This document shows positions 2,357 through 59,069 of a stretch of DNA of 64,000 nt, piece after piece. Position 1 is the stretch's first letter; every line of letters starts with the position of its first letter. Origin of the DNA: an uncultured Tateyamaria sp. (GTDB taxonomy: Bacteria; Pseudomonadota; Alphaproteobacteria; Rhodobacterales; Rhodobacteraceae); NCBI RefSeq assembly GCF_947503385.1, contig NZ_CANNDO010000002.1, positions 558,001-622,000 on the forward strand, in the 5' to 3' direction. The notes beneath the pieces were generated by a model that saw only the letters and a list, made by a program, of their open reading frames with translations, was not told where the DNA came from and did no database searches. Made by a program: the position numbers and the translations under genes.

Positions 2357-3114
2357 GTCAGCCTCATCGGGATGCCCGCAGCGGCCATATGCGCCTTGGC
2401 CTCGGCGATGGTGAAATCACCAAAGTGAAAAATCGAAGCAGCCAGCACCGCTGATGCGCCGCCTTTGGTCACGCCATCGACGAGGTGATCCAGCGTGCCG
2501 ACGCCACCCGATGCAATCACCGGAATGGGCACTGCGTCCGAAATGGCGCGCGTCAGTGGCAGGTTGAACCCCGCACGCGTGCCGTCGCGGTCCATGGAGG
2601 TCAGCAGGATCTCGCCCGCGCCTTTGGCGGCTGCGGTGCGCGCAAAGTCAACCGCGTCGATGCCCGTTGGCTTGCGCCCGCCATGCGTGAAAATCTCCCA
2701 ACGGCCCGGCGCAACGGTCTTGGCGTCGATGGCGCAGACGATGCACTGACTGCCAAACTGATCCGCCGCGCGCGTCAACACATCAGGGTCTGCGACAGCG
2801 GCGGAGTTGAACGACACCTTGTCGGCTCCTGCCAAAAGCAGCGCGCGCACATCAGCAACCGTGCGCACACCGCCACCCACGGTCAGCGGGATAAAGCACT
2901 GCTCGGCTGTACGCTGCACCAGATCGAACATCGTGCCGCGGTTTTCATGGGTCGCATGAATGTCGAGAAAACACAGCTCGTCCGCGCCCGCGGCGTCATA
3001 GGCGCGCGCCGCCTCGACCGGATCGCCGGCGTCGATCAGATCAACAAAGTTGACGCCCTTGACCACGCGCCCATCGGCCACGTCGAGACAAGGGATGATA
3101 CGGGTTTTCAACAT
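2353..3114 (-). CDS. hisF: Imidazole glycerol phosphate synthase, cyclase subunit HisF
   Basis: A (beta/alpha)8-barrel cyclase that uses ammonia from HisH to make imidazoleglycerol phosphate and AICAR. The start is set at 3114 ([12 protein letters not shown]). The upstream in-frame extension is basic, low in complexity and crosses an intergenic repeat. Catalytic Asp11 lies in IPCLDV and the second acid in VCAIDAK (about 130). Phosphate-binding glycines are seen in GGGVRT and ASGGVGT. Length is 253 residues, typical. It overlaps hisE by 4 nt. Confidence 0.97.
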
Positions 3115-3141
3115 GGGGGTGGGTGTAGTGCGCTTTGCACG

Positions 3142-3204
3142 CCGGGGAAAGGGGCTCTGCCCCTCGGCCTGCGGCCTCACCCCGGGATTTTTCGGGACAG
3201 AGAC
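3142..3204. repeat. Roseobacter-type intergenic repeat, copy 1
   Basis: A non-coding element with two small hairpins (GGGGCTCTGCCCC at 3151-3163, then GGCCTGCGGCC) and the end CCCGGGATTTTTCGGGACAG followed by AGAC. The GATTTTT...GGGACAGAGAC end recurs in inverse orientation at 39171-39212 and 42511-42550. It lies upstream of hisF and in front of the DUF302 gene. Confidence 0.6.
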
Positions 3205-3295
3205 ATGGGAGGACCGCCGCCTATCACGCAAAGGTGTGTGGGCCTTGGACCGGGCTCATGCAAAGTCGAACAGGTTACAAGACGGAGGACAGGAT

Positions 3296-3748
3296 ATGCG
3301 AATTGTATTTGGGTGGATTTTGATGATGGCAATGGCAGGCGCGGCGATGGCGGGTGACAACGGGATCATCCGCAAGCAGGCAGCCGGTGGCGTGGCCGAA
3401 ACCGTGGACGCGCTGGCAAGCGCCATGGAAGGCGCCGGCATCACCGTCTTTGCGCGGGTGGATCATGGCGCTGGCGCGCAGTCCATCGGCGAAGATATCG
3501 GTGCCTCGCAGCTCTTGATCTTTGGCAACCCCAAGGTCGGCACGCCCGCCATGAAAGACGACCCGGTGGCGGGTCTGTTCCTGCCGCTCAAAGTGCTGGT
3601 GTTCGAAGATGGCACCGGCAAGACGATGATTGCCTACGAAGACCCCAAGGCAATGCTGGAGAAACTGGGCGGCGTGTCCGAAGACGCGGCCTATCTGAAC
3701 GTGATGACGGGTGCGCTGGCCAAGTTCACGGACGGCGTGGCGCAGTAG
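3296..3748 (+). CDS. DUF302 family exported protein
   Basis: A 150-residue protein with an N-terminal signal peptide (MRIVFGWILMMAMAGAAMA, cleaved near residue 19). It continues as a DUF302 domain: TVDALASAMEGAGITVFARVDH, GEDIGASQLLIFGNPKVGTPAM, and KVLVFEDGTGKTMIAYEDP. The family has a small alpha/beta fold of unknown function, often periplasmic or heme/iron linked. The start has GGAGGA about 6 nt upstream. It lies head-to-head with hisF and tail-to-tail with hisA, so it interrupts the minus-strand histidine block. Confidence 0.85.
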   Translation: MRIVFGWILMMAMAGAAMAGDNGIIRKQAAGGVAETVDALASAMEGAGITVFARVDHGAGAQSIGEDIGASQLLIFGNPKVGTPAMKDDPVAGLFLPLKVLVFEDGTGKTMIAYEDPKAMLEKLGGVSEDAAYLNVMTGALAKFTDGVAQ

Positions 3749-53188: not shown

Positions 53189-55135
53189 ATGGCCCAGATC
53201 TCTCTCACCTTTCCTGACGGCAATGCACGCGACTATGACGCGGGCGTGACCCCTGCGGCTGTTGCGGAAAGCATCTCCAAATCCTTGGGCAAAAAGGCGA
53301 TCAGCGCGACCGTGGACGGCCAGCACTGGGACCTCGCATGGCCAATCGCGGCGGATGCCTCCATCGCCATCCACACCATGCAGGACGAAGAGCAGGCCAA
53401 CGAGTTGGTGCGCCACGACCTTGCGCACATCATGGCGCGCGCCGTGCAGGAAATCTGGCCCGACACCAAGGTCACCATCGGCCCGGTGATCGAGAATGGC
53501 TGGTATTACGACTTTGACCGGGCAGAGCCGTTCACCCCCGAAGACCTTGGCGTCATCGAAAAGAAGATGAAGGAGATCATCAACAAGCGTGATCCCGTCC
53601 GCACCGAGGTGTGGGACCGGGACGTGGCGATCAAGTATTACGAAGACCGGAACGAACCCTACAAGGTCGAGCTGATCAACAGCATCCCCGGCGACGAGCC
53701 GCTGCGGATGTACTGGCACGGCGACTGGCAAGACCTGTGCCGTGGTCCGCATCTGCAACATACCGGCCAAGTGCCGGGCGACGCGTTCAAACTGATGTCC
53801 ATCGCCGGGGCCTACTGGCGCGGCGACAGCAGCCGCGCGATGCTGCAACGCATCTACGGCGTGGCCTTCACCGGCAAAGAGAAACTGCGCGCGCATCTCA
53901 ACATGCTCGAAGAGGCGGCCAAACGCGACCACCGCAAGCTGGGCCGCGAGATGGACCTGTTCCACATGCAGGAAGAGGCCCCCGGTCAGGTGTTCTGGCA
54001 TCCCAACGGCTGGACCATCTACACCCAGTTGCAGGACTATATGCGGCGCAAGCAGCAGATGGGCGACTACGTAGAGGTAAACACTCCGCAGGTCGTGAAC
54101 CGGCATCTGTGGGAAAAGTCCGGCCACTGGGAAAAATATCAGGAGAATATGTTCATCGTCGAAGTGGACGAGGACAATGCCCGCGAAAAGGCGATCAACG
54201 CGCTCAAGCCGATGAACTGCCCCTGCCACGTTGAAATCTTCAAGCATGGGCTGAAATCCTATCGCGATCTGCCCATGCGCATGGCGGAATTCGGGTCCTG
54301 TGCGCGGTACGAGCCGTCGGGCGCGCTGCACGGCATCATGCGGGTGCGTGGATTTGCGCAGGATGACGGGCACATCTTTGCCGAGGAATTCCAGATCGAA
54401 AGCGAATGCGCGATCTTCATCAAGTTCCTCACTGACATCTATCAGGACTTGGGCTTTGACAGCTTCAAGGTCAAATTCTCGGATCGGCCCGACACCCGCG
54501 CCGGATCGGATGAGGTGTGGGATAAGGCAGAAGACGCTTTGCTTTATGCAACGCGCGCTGCTGGGATCGAACCCGAGATGAACCCCGGAGAAGGGGCGTT
54601 TTACGGCCCCAAGCTGGAGTTTGTGCTGACCGACGCCATTGGGCGGGACTGGCAATGTGGCACCTTTCAGGTGGATTTCGTGCTGCCTGAACGTCTGGAC
54701 GCCACGTATATTGGCCGCGACGGGGCCAAACACCGCCCCGTGATGCTGCACCGCGCGACGCTGGGATCGTTCGAGCGTTTTATCGGCATCCTGATCGAAG
54801 AACACGCAGGCAAGCTGCCGTTCTGGCTGGCCCCGCGGCAGGTGGTTGTCGCCTCCATCACGTCCGAGGCGGATCATTACGTGTCAGATGTGGTCGATGC
54901 GCTCAAGGCGGCGGGCGTGCGTGCCGAGGCCGACATGCGCAACGAAAAGATCAACTACAAGGTCCGCGAGCATTCGGTCGGCAAGGTCCCTGTCATCCTC
55001 GCCGTTGGTGGCCGTGAAGTCGAAGACCAGACAGTGTCGGTGCGGCGCTTGGGGGAAAAGCAGACGAGCGTGCAATCGTTGGCGGATGTTGTGGACGCGC
55101 TGCGCATTGAGGCGACCCCGCCCGATCTGCGCTGA
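53189..55135 (+). CDS. thrS: Threonyl-tRNA synthetase
   Basis: A 648-residue class II synthetase. The TGS domain is at 1-62 and the editing domain at 65-225, with the HxxxH zinc motif in [12 protein letters not shown]. The catalytic core has motif 2 in [22 protein letters not shown] and zinc ligands including Cys in [10 protein letters not shown]. The anticodon-binding domain is at 545-648. It lacks any T-box or visible leader. It begins 102 nt after the DUF4105 gene. A long palindrome follows the stop. Confidence 0.97.
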
Positions 55136-55173
55136 TCGCCGCAATTGCAACATTGCGCAGACCACGCTGCAAC

Positions 55174-55197
55174 AATTGAGGCCGATCGGCCTCAATT
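55174..55197 (+). terminator. 24-bp perfect palindrome after thrS
   Basis: AATTGAGGCC-GATC-GGCCTCAATT is a perfect palindrome, forming a 10-bp stem with a GATC loop, 38 nt past the thrS stop. TTTGCGC follows. It is the likely thrS terminator, and also separates thrS from the bufferin operon. Confidence 0.7.
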
Positions 55198-55327
55198 TGC
55201 GCGCTTTGACTGACATTGTATAACTTGGCCGTGAGGCGCTGCCGCAAGGGTGGTGTTTGCCGTAACAGATGCCCTATCTCACCATCACACAGGATTTGTA
55301 ACTGATATCGCAAAGGGACGATTGAAG

Positions 55328-55633
55328 ATGTCGAAGACCATGAAAACTGTCGCTATCGTTGGTGCCGTTGCAGCTGCCGTTACCGCACATAGCACGACAC
55401 CTGCCGAAGCCGCGTCCAAGGAGAAATGCTTTGGCATTTCGCTGGCGGGCGAAAACGACTGCGCCGCGGGCCCCGGCACCACCTGTGCAGGCACCTCGAC
55501 CGTGGACTATCAGGGGAATGCGTGGACGCTTGTGGATGCAGGCACCTGCACCGAGATCGACCTGCCCGCGCTGGCCGACGGTACCCCGCGCGAGGGGTCG
55601 CTGACCGAGCTTGACCGCGACCTGCCCGCCTAA
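55328..55633 (+). CDS. bufA: Bufferin precursor peptide BufA (DUF2282)
   Basis: A 101-residue RiPP precursor. The N-terminal signal peptide ([16 protein letters not shown]...AEA|AS) sends it to the periplasm. The core holds four cysteines in the BufA1 pattern: Cys34 ([15 protein letters not shown]), Cys45, Cys53 (TTCAGTST) and Cys74 (DAGTCTE). In bufferins the MNIO enzyme BufB converts core cysteines to thio-oxazole groups that bind copper. It is the first gene of bufABCD. ATG at 55328; a second ATG at 55340 would give a more normal signal peptide length. Confidence 0.9.
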
Positions 55634-55706
55634 GGCACAAAAGATCCCGACGCGCCGGATTCCTTCTTGGGTCCGGCGCATCCAATCCCAACCGGAGAGC
55701 CATGCC

Positions 55707-56567
55707 ATGCTGGACGCATCACACCGATCGCCAAGCCTGCCCAAGGCGCCGGGTGTGGGATACAAACCCCAGCATTTCGATGCGTTGCGCAGCGAGCCGG
55801 GTCCGGTGACGTGGCTGGAAATACACGCCGAGAATTACATGGGCGACGGTGGGCGACCACATGCACAGTTGCACGCGTTGCGTGCCGACTTTGCCATTTC
55901 GGTCCATGGCGTTGGGCTGTCGATTGGTGGCGAAGGCCGGTTGGACCCCGACCACCTCGCACGGTTGCAACGCCTTGTGGACTGGCTTGAACCCGCCAGC
56001 TTTTCCGAGCATCTGGCATGGTCCACCCATGGGGCCGAGTTTCTCGACGATCTGCTGCCCCTGCCCTATACCGATGCGACCCTGACGCGGGTGGCCGATC
56101 ACATCGACGAGGTGCAAGACCTGCTGGGCCGCCAGATGCTGCTGGAAAACCCATCAAGCTACCTCGCCTTTGCGGAAAGCACGTGGTCCGAGACGGAGTT
56201 TCTGTCTGAACTGACCCGCCGCACCGGCTGTGGTCTGTTGCTGGATGTGAACAATGTCTTTATCTCGGCCACCAATCTTGGCGACACAGCGACCGGGTAT
56301 CTGGATGCCTACCCGCTGCACGCAGTTGGCGAAATCCACGTCGGCGGACATGACGAAGACGCGGACGACCATGGTGCGCCGCTGCTGATCGACAGCCACG
56401 CGCACCCCGCGGCAGAGCCTGTGTGGACCCTGCTGGACTATGCCCTTCGGCGCACAGGGCCTGCGCCCGTGCTGGTCGAATGGGACAATGATGTGCCGGA
56501 ATGGCCCGCATTGCGGGCCGAGGCGGACAGGGCCGCCAGCGCACTTGCCACCATCCCTGCGCACTGA
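55707..56567 (+). CDS. bufB: MNIO-family bufferin-modifying oxidase BufB (DUF692)
   Basis: A 286-residue TIM-barrel, multinuclear non-heme iron oxidative enzyme. Metal-site motifs are in order: [11 protein letters not shown] (about 37-47), [52 protein letters not shown] and [12 protein letters not shown]. It modifies cysteines of BufA in the cytoplasm before export. CCGGAGAG precedes the ATG at 55707. It lies 73 nt after bufA and 3 nt before bufC. Confidence 0.93.
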
Positions 56568-56570
56568 ACC

Positions 56571-57329
56571 ATGGGCACCAGGCAATCACAGTTTCGGGCC
56601 GCCTTGCTGGATCCTGCCGCGCCCGTGCCGGACGGCCTCACTGATGGTGCCGGCGCCCCCACCGTCAAACGCTTTGACGTGTACCGCAACAATGTGACTG
56701 TCGCCCTGATCGACGCGCTGCGCACGGCATTCCCGGTTTTGCGCAAGCTGCTGGGGGACGCAAATTTTGACCCGCTTGCCCGGGTATACGCCCGGGCGCA
56801 TCCGCCACGGTCTCCGCTGATGATGCATTACGGTCAGGACATGCCTGCCTTTTTGGACGGGTTCGCGCCGCTGAAGCATCTGGGCTATTTGCCGGACGTC
56901 GCGCGGTTGGAACTGGCCTTGCGCCGGTCCTACCATGCGGCGGACAGCGCCGCACTGGACGCGCAGGTCCTCGCCGCCTGCCCGCCCGAGACGCTAATGG
57001 GTTCGTGTCTGCAATTGGCCCCGGCTGTGCAGTTGATCCCGTCGCCATGGCCGCTCTTTGACATCTGGCGCTACAACACCGTCGCGGGCGCGCCCAAGCC
57101 TCAAGCCACCGCACAATCAGTGCTGATCACCCGCGCCGGGTTCGACCCCGAACCGCACGCCCTGACCGCCGCGCAATACGCGTGGCTTCACGCCTGCCAA
57201 ACCGGTGCGAACCTCACAGAGGCGCAGGACAGCGCCAGCGCGACCGACCCCGCCTTTGACCTTGCCCCGCTGCTTGGCCTGCTGTTGCAGCACGGCGCGC
57301 TCACCACCCTCACCACGCCAAAGGACTGA
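56571..57329 (+). CDS. bufC: Bufferin partner protein BufC (DUF2063)
   Basis: A 252-residue protein. The N-terminal DUF2063 helical domain (QSQFRAALLDPAAPVPDGLT, FDVYRNNVTVALIDALRTAF) contains the conserved YRNN motif. It is followed by DMPAFLDGFAPLKHLGYLPDVARLE in blocks. BufC is the recognition partner that brings the precursor peptide to the MNIO enzyme. It starts 3 nt after bufB and ends 3 nt before bufD, so the three are one message. Confidence 0.9.
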   Translation: MGTRQSQFRAALLDPAAPVPDGLTDGAGAPTVKRFDVYRNNVTVALIDALRTAFPVLRKLLGDANFDPLARVYARAHPPRSPLMMHYGQDMPAFLDGFAPLKHLGYLPDVARLELALRRSYHAADSAALDAQVLAACPPETLMGSCLQLAPAVQLIPSPWPLFDIWRYNTVAGAPKPQATAQSVLITRAGFDPEPHALTAAQYAWLHACQTGANLTEAQDSASATDPAFDLAPLLGLLLQHGALTTLTTPKD

Positions 57330-57332
57330 CCC

Positions 57333-57854
57333 ATGACTGCCATTGCCCGCATTCGCTCCGCCCTGTTCGATCCCATGGACCGGGGCGACTGGCTGCTTCC
57401 GACCTTGGCACGCGTTACGTTCCTCGCTGTGTTTTTCTTTTACTTCCTCAATTCTGCCGGAACCAAAATCGACGGTGGTCTGTTCTCGCCCTCTGCCGGT
57501 GCCTTCGCCCAGATCTTTCCAAAAGCGGCCGAAGCTGTGCTCTATGATGTGACGCAACTGACCGGCTTTCAGCGGCTGGTGATCTTTGTCGGCACATTGG
57601 CGGAATATGTTCTGCCGGTTTTGATCGTCGTCGGACTGTTCACACGGCTGGCAGCGGCCGCCATGATTGGCTTTGTCATTGTGCAAACGGCGGTCGATGT
57701 CACCGGGCACGGGGTTGCTCTGGGCACATGGTTCAACAACGCGCCCGAGTTGATCGACCAGCGCACGCTCTGGGTCTTTCTGCTGCTCGTTCTGGTGATC
57801 AAGGGCGCAGGCCCGCTGGCGATCGACCGCGCCTTGGCGGCGAAAGCCGCCTAG
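57333..57854 (+). CDS. bufD: DoxX-family membrane protein BufD
   Basis: A 173-residue inner-membrane protein with four helices. DoxX features are the first helix (LLPTLARVTFLAVFFFYFLN), GTLAEYVLPVLIVVGLFTRL, then helix four (TLWVFLLLVLVIKGAGPLAI). DoxX genes end many bufferin operons, and their role there is undefined. Its TAG shares 4 bp with the stop of the converging ArsC-like gene (CTAG at 57851-57854). Confidence 0.88.
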   Translation: MTAIARIRSALFDPMDRGDWLLPTLARVTFLAVFFFYFLNSAGTKIDGGLFSPSAGAFAQIFPKAAEAVLYDVTQLTGFQRLVIFVGTLAEYVLPVLIVVGLFTRLAAAAMIGFVIVQTAVDVTGHGVALGTWFNNAPELIDQRTLWVFLLLVLVIKGAGPLAIDRALAAKAA

Positions 57855-58165
57855 ACGCCTAAGGCAGCCTGCACATCCTTGGTCCAGCCAAGGTGCATCT
57901 CTGTGCCCGCCACGATCAGCGGGCGCTTCATCAACGTGGGATGCGCCGCCAGCAGCGCCTCCGGCGTGCCAGCCCGCTCCGTCTCACTCAAGCCGCGCCA
58001 TGTGGTCGACCGTGTGTTGACAAGTGCATCGCCGAACCGAGCGCGCGCCGCCGCCATTACATCGTCTGGCACACCTTCGGCGCGCACATCCACAAACCGC
58101 GCCTCCGGCAGCGCCTTGATGGCCTTGCGGCACGTGTCACATGTCTTCAAACCATAGATTTCCAT
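57851..58165 (-). CDS. ArsC/Spx-family thioredoxin-fold protein
   Basis: A 104-residue protein. The N-terminal CxxC is in YGLKTCDTCRKAIKAL (Cys9, Cys12). Typical ArsC-family segments RSTTWRGLSETER and LLAAHPTLMKRPLIVAG (with the conserved KRPL) follow. These proteins are glutaredoxin-linked arsenate reductases or redox regulators. No arsenic genes are close, so it could be the YffB type. It is convergent with bufD. Confidence 0.88.
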   Translation of the reverse strand: MEIYGLKTCDTCRKAIKALPEARFVDVRAEGVPDDVMAAARARFGDALVNTRSTTWRGLSETERAGTPEALLAAHPTLMKRPLIVAGTEMHLGWTKDVQAALGV

Positions 58166-58352
58166 CGCACCCCTCCAATCGTGCCCAAATAATCATCTGA
58201 GCCCCCGATATAACAGCCTCGTACCTTGAAATTCGCCGCAAACGGGCAATCTGTTTGAGTAGCGGACGCCTGCTCTGCCTTTGGCGGGACATGCCGTGCG
58301 CATCCAAGTTCCCCGCGCGGGGAAGACTGAAAGGCAAAAGGAGGCACGGGTC

Positions 58353-58559
58353 ATGCCAACTGGCACCGTGAAGTGGTTCAACACCACAAAAGGCTATGGG
58401 TTCATTGCGCCGGAAGACGGCGGCAAAGACATTTTTGTACATATTTCCGCAGTGGAACGGTCAGGACTGACCGGGCTTGCGGACAACCAGAAAGTCAGCT
58501 TTGAACTGCTGGAAGGCCGCGATGGCCGGCAGATGGCTGGCGATCTGAAACTGCTGTAA
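58353..58559 (+). CDS. Cold-shock protein (CspA family)
   Basis: A 68-residue OB-fold nucleic-acid chaperone. It has RNP1 (KGYGFIAPEDG) and RNP2 (KDIFVHISAVE). It starts GTVKWFNTTKGYG, with AAAGGAGG upstream. A gap of about 190 nt before the ATG could hold the long leader common to cold-shock genes; I did not recognise a cold box. A 9-bp hairpin follows the stop. Confidence 0.96.
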   Translation: MPTGTVKWFNTTKGYGFIAPEDGGKDIFVHISAVERSGLTGLADNQKVSFELLEGRDGRQMAGDLKLL

Positions 58560-58602: not shown

Positions 58603-58893
58603 TCAGTCGTAGCTGCACCCTTTGGTGCCAACAGGACAACTGTCCCGGCGCACAGCACGGATACGTTTGACGTGGCGCTTTTTCGCGACCCCGTGGGCCA
58701 TGACCTGCTGATAGGTGTGCGCCTGATTTGGCACGCCGCAGCAGATTGTCCCGTCCATCGTCACCGGCTGCATACCCGCAGGGCAGTAGTTGGCGTGGCT
58801 TTTGTAGGCGTAGATTTTGGGGCCGGAATGACCGTCCGCAAGGACCGGAGTGGCCATCAACAGGGCCAGAGCTGTTGCACTGATAAAACGCAT
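58603..58893 (-). CDS. Small exported cysteine-containing protein
   Basis: A 96-residue protein with a signal peptide (MRFISATALALLMATPVLA|DG). The mature part has five cysteines in three groups (ANYCPAGMQPV, DGTICCGVPN, RRDSCPVGTKGCSYD) and a very basic stretch KKRHVKRIRAVRR. This suggests a periplasmic disulfide-linked or metal-binding small protein. No family is recognised. The start at 58893 is chosen by the signal peptide; an 11-residue longer frame is possible. Confidence 0.7.
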   Translation of the reverse strand: MRFISATALALLMATPVLADGHSGPKIYAYKSHANYCPAGMQPVTMDGTICCGVPNQAHTYQQVMAHGVAKKRHVKRIRAVRRDSCPVGTKGCSYD

Positions 58894-59069
58894 ATTTTCC
58901 CTCGTTCGGTGGCTGGACCACGACATCTATGGTTGTGCGCCAAGTGTGCAGAGCCACGGGCGCTCTGTCCAGAAATTTTGTTAACCATGGCCTGCGGGCG
59001 CATCGTTAACCTTGTTCTGGCGGTTTTGTGTTTAGGCTGGAAACAGTTTTCGCCTTAATCTGGTGTCCC

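Follow-up and report, generated by a model that had tools for sequence, protein, structure and literature searches.

How a bufferin operon is controlled when it lies outside the known regulatory schemes is the question raised by a locus in a 64,000-nucleotide stretch of DNA from an uncultured Tateyamaria species (the window, meaning the whole stretch analysed). Exported and copper-binding, bufferins make up a very large peptide class, whose regulation is assigned, in the accessible portions of the literature, to sigma-F with NrsF or to RpoQ. The best overall explanation of the locus, which we hold at a probability of nearly nine in ten, is an intact Buf1 (captophorin) operon for a copper-binding thiooxazole peptide, free of sigma-F/NrsF control, with an mRNA ratio probably skewed by an RNA hairpin.

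There is good support for identifying the locus as a complete Buf1 operon. A sequence-only reading of the window had proposed a four-gene bufABCD set at 55328-57854; its coordinates are exact to the base, the four ORFs are intact, and the families were confirmed by Pfam and NCBIfam (Table 1). The bufA-bufB gap is 73 nt, as that reading gave it, and the bufB-bufC and bufC-bufD gaps are 3 nt each. According to the relevant passages of PMC12452194, a Buf1 operon is recognised by its bufABC order, by a DUF2282 precursor that bears a Sec signal, and by an MNIO together with a partner of PME type 1; some of the clusters also contain DoxX and sigma/NrsF genes. The order bufA-bufB-bufC in the window is that of Buf1 operons, and it recurs in the named relatives.

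Table 1. Features of the buf locus, in coordinates of the window.
Feature	Position	Strand	Description	Basis or remark
Half-degenerate tandem palindrome	55221-55249	+	TAAC 55221-55224 and CGTGA 55230-55234 kept	
Putative core promoter	55250-55280	+	GTGG 55250-55253 at the -35 place, TATCTC 55275-55280 at the -10 place	Position as in relatives
Shine-Dalgarno-like AAGGGA	55313-55318	+	Before bufA	AAGGGA or near variants at the same place in genus loci
bufA	55328-55633	+	DUF2282 (Buf1) precursor, 101 aa	PF10048, 85.1 bits (Pfam cut-off 22.4); ORF
Intergenic RNA hairpin	55652-55679	+	11-bp stem 55652-55662 / 55669-55679, 6-nt loop, no U run	
bufB	55707-56567	+	MNIO bufferin maturase, 286 aa	NF050167, PF05114, alignment with 3bww
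bufC	56571-57329	+	DUF2063 plus RRE partner (PME type 1), 252 aa	PF09836, structural model, fold matches
bufD	57333-57854	+	DoxX-like membrane protein, 173 aa	PF07681 match below cut-off; homologues in relatives' loci

BufA, which has no NCBIfam match, appears by inspection to begin with a signal-peptide-like N-terminus, consisting of a basic end, a hydrophobic stretch and an AEA-A junction before ASKEKC. Translation could also begin at 55340 (MKTVAIVG...), a start that most genus loci retain as well. The sequence-only reading had noted four core cysteines and spoken of modified cysteines in bufferins; four are indeed present, at positions 34, 45, 53 and 74, but modification in Buf1 is reported, in the portion of PMC12452194 that treats it, at the two central cysteines only, while the outer pair is linked by a disulphide.

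BufB passes the equivalog cut-off of the NCBIfam model MNIO_BufB (361.7 bits, cut-off 310) and matches the Pfam family MbnB_TglH_ChrH at 333.7 bits (cut-off 25). Its alignment with 3bww, a solved MNIO, covers the HGxxLSxGG, HL, EN, LDVNN, GHD and DxH motifs, so that the metal-site motifs common to the two in the alignment are intact; read by motif, the aspartate and histidine of DxH and the asparagine of VNN putatively correspond to D242, H244 and N175 of HvfB, as numbered in the accessible part of PMC13419390. The partner protein BufC scores 94.2 bits for DUF2063 (cut-off 27.2), its only NCBIfam match being HvfC at 41 bits against a cut-off of 142. A search with the BufC sequence alone found no relative in the PDB, and one with an alignment found only 8hci at E 0.13; the predicted structure (pLDDT 92) has as its best solved folds TglI (8hci, 8hi7) and NGO1945 (3dee), both partners of MNIOs. 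BufC thus joins a DUF2063 to an RRE-type domain within 252 aa, as type 1 partners do in about 250-260 aa. BufD falls just under the DoxX cut-off (23.1 against 23.6 bits), with HvfX its only NCBIfam match (22.6 bits, cut-off 80); it has several hydrophobic stretches, and a homologue is found in 79 of 80 loci from named relatives.

Close counterparts have been described elsewhere, at least in the excerpts available of the papers concerned. In Caulobacter, CC3254-CC3257 encode DUF2282, DUF692, DUF2063 and DoxX proteins in an order identical to that of the window (PMC3511200), and the four protein kinds are again those of gigPABT in Cupriavidus metallidurans, an operon induced by copper and gold that contributes to copper resistance (PMC10304878). 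The differences lie in control. Caulobacter has sigF and a negative regulator (CC3252-CC3253) adjoining its buf genes (PMC3511200), and gig is divergent from rpoQ-rsqA, whereas neither pair stands beside the operon of the window; nor does the window's genome have NrsF, or its buf operon the promoter GTAAC-N16..18-CG[AT]A. Oxazolin (Hvf) and fontiphorin clusters likewise pair an MNIO with a PME type 1 partner, and 5-thiooxazoles and copper binding are described for their products (PMC13097082, PMC13419390, in part); their precursors, however, carry EGKCG repeats, and the window proteins lie below the HvfB, HvfC and HvfX cut-offs.

The operon of the window is an ordinary, common Buf1 bufferin operon, which alone adds one more member to its class. 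DUF2282 was found in 211 of the 295 Rhodobacteraceae genomes sampled and in 19 of the 20 from the genus, as well as in 39 of 115 genomes drawn from the class and 31 of 150 drawn from the phylum. Two sets of loci were compared. One comprises 128 loci in which a start was assigned to bufA (19 from the genus and 109 others), the 110 loci outside the genus representing the better-scoring part of the 211 DUF2282-matching genomes (30 listed and 80 picked). The other consists of the 80 named loci, which share at least 11 with the first set and of which 76 were left for the hairpin and element counts once four, where the bufA pattern had no match, were dropped. Among named organisms, Tateyamaria omphalii strains have the proteins closest to BufB (86% identity in the best segment), and there and in other Rhodobacteraceae bufABCD also follows thrS.

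In the window, buf is preceded by thrS and followed by an ArsC-family gene, which is encoded on the opposite strand, and by a cold-shock-type gene; together they form a block (53189-58559) that is conserved in the named Rhodobacteraceae loci. Chance arrangement of these genes is unlikely, since thrS precedes buf in 77 of the 80 named loci and thrS-bufABCD are all in order in 76, and the ArsC-family gene is found on the opposite strand in 72. The thrS-buf locus is probably old and vertically kept in the family, and no rare find. Beyond this block, at 58603-58926 on the minus strand, is a small cysteine-containing, signal-peptide-like ORF with no Pfam match at E<=1e-5 and no NCBIfam match at E<=0.01, homologues of which occur near buf in 10 of the 80 named loci. 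At one buf locus of the family sample (L098, genome G007), bufA is duplicated in tandem.

By analogy with characterised members of the family, BufA would be made with a Sec signal peptide, and BufB with its partner BufC would turn Cys 45 and Cys 53, the central pair, into 5-thiooxazoles ahead of export. Once mature, the peptide would carry a disulphide between Cys 34 and Cys 74 and bind copper in the periplasm, with BufD presumably an accessory membrane protein. Such peptides are united under the name captophorins, with 5-thiooxazoles, in the relevant passages of PMC13097082, and related MNIO products are covered in part by PMC12538549 and PMC13419390. A role in copper protection is likely by family, from the work on Caulobacter and Cupriavidus: the portions consulted of PMC3511200, PMC8224329 and PMC10304878 tie sigma-F, copper and gold to such operons, and a table in a copper-stress paper lists the Caulobacter buf operons beside SigF and NrsF, all with positive values (PMC8224329, in part). 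Excerpts of two roseobacter papers mention DUF692 gene clusters without copper (PMC11278168, PMC11595833).

With regard to control, the sequence-only reading had remarked that no ECF sigma factor is encoded next to the operon, and a check of the neighbours bears this out, no sigma gene being among them. NrsF has no match anywhere in the window's genome or in any of the 20 genus genomes, and across the family only 40 of 295 genomes have a match above the cut-off, or 45 when E<=0.001 is allowed. Since NrsF is absent from the genome, the window operon is most likely not run by sigma-F and NrsF. Among the 128 loci, a sigma-F-type promoter resembling that of Caulobacter, GTAAC-N16..18-CG[AT]A, sought within 200 nt, was found in 17 of 23 NrsF-positive loci versus 1 of 105 NrsF-negative ones (Fisher p 2.8e-15, uncorrected for relatedness), the exceptions being the NrsF-negative locus L121, which has the motif, and the six NrsF-positive loci that do not. 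In the named set the motif occurs in none of the 76 loci.

One near match to the sigma-F promoter in the window, at 55298-55321 (GTAAC-N16-CGA, then T), was set aside as less likely, because NrsF occurs in no genus genome and the motif lies further upstream in NrsF-positive loci. Its end lies 6 nt short of the bufA ATG, so that it would leave bufA leaderless or shortened, and the window holds two such near matches versus 3.34 expected by chance. A comparable string, GTAACC-GATATCC-GAAAGGGA-CGTT, stands at this place in many genus loci, where it overlaps the Shine-Dalgarno region.

In place of the sigma-F promoter, the NrsF-negative loci share a different element upstream of bufA. CACG-N5-GTGA occurs in 54 of 88 such loci and GTGA-N11-GTGA in 43 of 88, and any such pair reaches at most six in each of five block-shuffled sets. 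The matrix built from this element, T-ACG-N4-CGTGA-NN-CACG-N4-CGTGA-N-TGG, corresponds to two 14-bp palindromes 15 bp apart. Scored on its own training loci, in 88 of which the seed was found, it exceeds the best reversed control (19.8) in 90 of 105 NrsF-negative loci, whereas 22 of 23 NrsF-positive loci do not rise above that value; the exception (L116) has a palindrome score of 24.9, and its NrsF is on another contig. Among the named loci, 74 of 76 score above 20, a level that no reversed sequence attains. Covariation within the palindromes (0.083 versus 0.085 in shuffles) does not go beyond that of shuffled alignments; an RNA reading of the upstream element was rejected on this ground, and the element is treated as a DNA site because the palindromes do not covary. 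Of the 79 aligned sites, 43 have TANNNT at 17 or 18 nt past the 36-nt site, and TGG-like letters precede this hexamer by about 17 nt, an arrangement suggestive of a sigma70-like promoter with the palindromes directly upstream. A site just upstream of a sigma70-type promoter is a common position for an activator.

The element is nearly confined to buf. A sequence model made from 50 sites was run over 30 genomes, scoring in each at most 150 first-look candidates; in 28 of them the region upstream of bufA gave the best match (E 1.7e-7 to 0.0012). Of the 30 genomes, 24 had contributed a site to the model, and among the other six buf was the best match in four but not in the window's genome or in G107. 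Only one non-buf site reached E<0.001 among the candidates scored, before an exported YHS-domain protein of one genome (G197). In 22 other genomes, 19 without DUF2282 and three with buf and NrsF, no site fell below 0.001 and one stood at 0.041, again among at most 150 candidates of each. This near confinement, together with the high scores across the named set, indicates that the element accompanies those buf operons whose genomes lack NrsF. From the element sites across the 30 genomes no candidate for its regulator was identified, and no description of the element was found in the open-access PMC literature, where the motif itself is not searchable.

The G197 site is a second copy of the element, at L354:2775-2805, about 100 nt before the YHS-domain gene at 2908-3354, whose product matches YHS_seleno_dom at 127.8 bits (cut-off 70); the arrangement hints at possible control of this protein, too, by the regulator of buf. 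A TetR-family gene with an AefR-like C-terminal domain follows the YHS gene; it was rejected as the regulator, position alone being no evidence.

The second control sequence is the hairpin in the bufA-bufB gap. Within the first 60 nt past the bufA stop, a stem of at least 7 bp is found in 121 of 128 gaps; control stretches have one in 32 of 128 cases just before bufA, in 27 of 129 at the bufA end and in 44 of 128 within bufB. Mean stem length is 10.25 bp in the gap versus 5.84, 5.64 and 6.1 bp in the three control stretches of the same loci, and z falls under -2 in 81 of 128 gaps versus 26, 7 and 6 controls. The named set, which overlaps the larger one, gives a stem in 70 of 76 gaps versus 8 of 76 controls. 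Within the genus, covariation over the 12 of 19 loci judged alignable is 0.371 versus 0.203 in shuffles, a value reached by none of 500, and five of the 11 pairs are changed on both sides. Most stems are no classic terminators, since four or more T within 8 nt on the 3' side follow only 32 of 122.

Conservation and covariation fit unequal expression of bufA and bufB, and lend indirect support to the suggestion of the sequence-only reading that the 73-nt gap could allow more precursor than enzyme. The hairpin would most likely protect the 3' end of the bufA message or act as a weak terminator, partly ending the transcript, either of which would leave more precursor mRNA than bufBCD mRNA; this proposal, like the promoter, is drawn from the anatomy of the locus. 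A second inverted repeat (for instance GGACC..GGTCC) was seen by eye in the bufA leader of L002-L009, L025, L027 and others, and 32 of 128 bufA leaders have a stem of at least 7 bp.

Several other explanations can be set against this account. That BufB belongs to another kind of MNIO, whether HvfB/oxazolin, methanobactin or other, has next to no probability: the HvfB model also matches it, at 211.8 bits, but the cut-off there is 360 and that for MbnB is 325 (54.3 obtained), the BufB cut-off is passed, and the precursor is a DUF2282 protein in which EGKCG repeats are absent. Improbable, to a lesser degree, is the notion that the same operon has a main task other than copper tolerance, such as dealing with gold or a further metal, or with the oxidative stress of a phototroph. 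Buf operons respond to gold as well (PMC5413113, PMC10304878) and, through sigma-F, to chromium (PMC3511200), and DoxX may point to other stresses (PMC12452194), all as stated in the accessible parts of these papers. In addition, the sequence-only reading called the genome phototrophic, which is true of the genome because two PF00124 (reaction-centre) matches lie on another contig. On the other hand, the Buf1 product characterised in PMC12452194 binds, according to the passages concerned, both Cu(I) and Cu(II). About equally doubtful is the view that the hairpin is a by-product of a GC-rich spacer with no role in expression. The window gap folded alone over 88 nt is unexceptional (z = -1.33, 18 of 200 shuffles being equally stable), although a 60-nt cut gives z = -3.0. 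Beyond the family, too, the stem is patchy, occurring in 16 of 25 loci of the wider draw that have an MNIO motif near, versus 5 of 25 control stretches, and the claim for the hairpin is confined to the family because of this patchy occurrence. Against the by-product view, the stems are longer than in all three control stretches, and they covary.

The more serious alternative, still unlikely but with a good deal more in its favour, is that the operon is drifting to constitutive or lost expression in the window species, two of its four half-sites being gone. CGCT (55237-55240) and CAAGG (55245-55249) stand in place of CACG and CGTGA, and the element scores 2.8, below the best reversed control, versus 15.6 to 45.5 in 17 of the 18 other genus loci (the last, L040, scoring -6.8); the two T. 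omphalii loci, at 45.2 and 40.9, keep the tandem palindrome. The genome-wide model search gave no buf site at E<=1 in the window's genome among at most 150 candidates, where the best non-buf match (E 0.039) is weak and lies between ORFs, with two more weak places at L356 and L357. Yet all four ORFs are intact, BufB exceeds its equivalog cut-off, and both the spacing of the core promoter, itself a putative one, and the hairpin are kept. Because the upstream element is half lost, regulated expression in the window species is uncertain, and for the same reason the new view of regulation, although strong at family level, is weak where the window sequence is concerned. An intact Buf1 operon outside sigma-F/NrsF control, with a hairpin behind its precursor gene, is the account that we prefer for the window.

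For the family as a whole, a broader proposal can be put forward tentatively, at somewhat less than even odds. In most Rhodobacteraceae, sigma-F/NrsF control of bufferin would have been replaced by an undescribed, nearly single-target activator that recognises a tandem pair of 14-bp palindromes (TNACG-N4-CGTGA, set 15 bp apart) immediately before a bufA promoter of the sigma70 type, while a covarying hairpin would set the ratio of precursor to enzyme; the window lineage would be losing the operator and keeping the operon and the hairpin. The apparent novelty lies in these control sequences, the hairpin and the tandem palindrome, which emerged from comparing relatives and are leads of moderate interest. 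The structured bufA-bufB spacer may set precursor against enzyme, and the comparison suggests that in most of a major marine and phototrophic family buf is controlled otherwise, through a defined DNA element.
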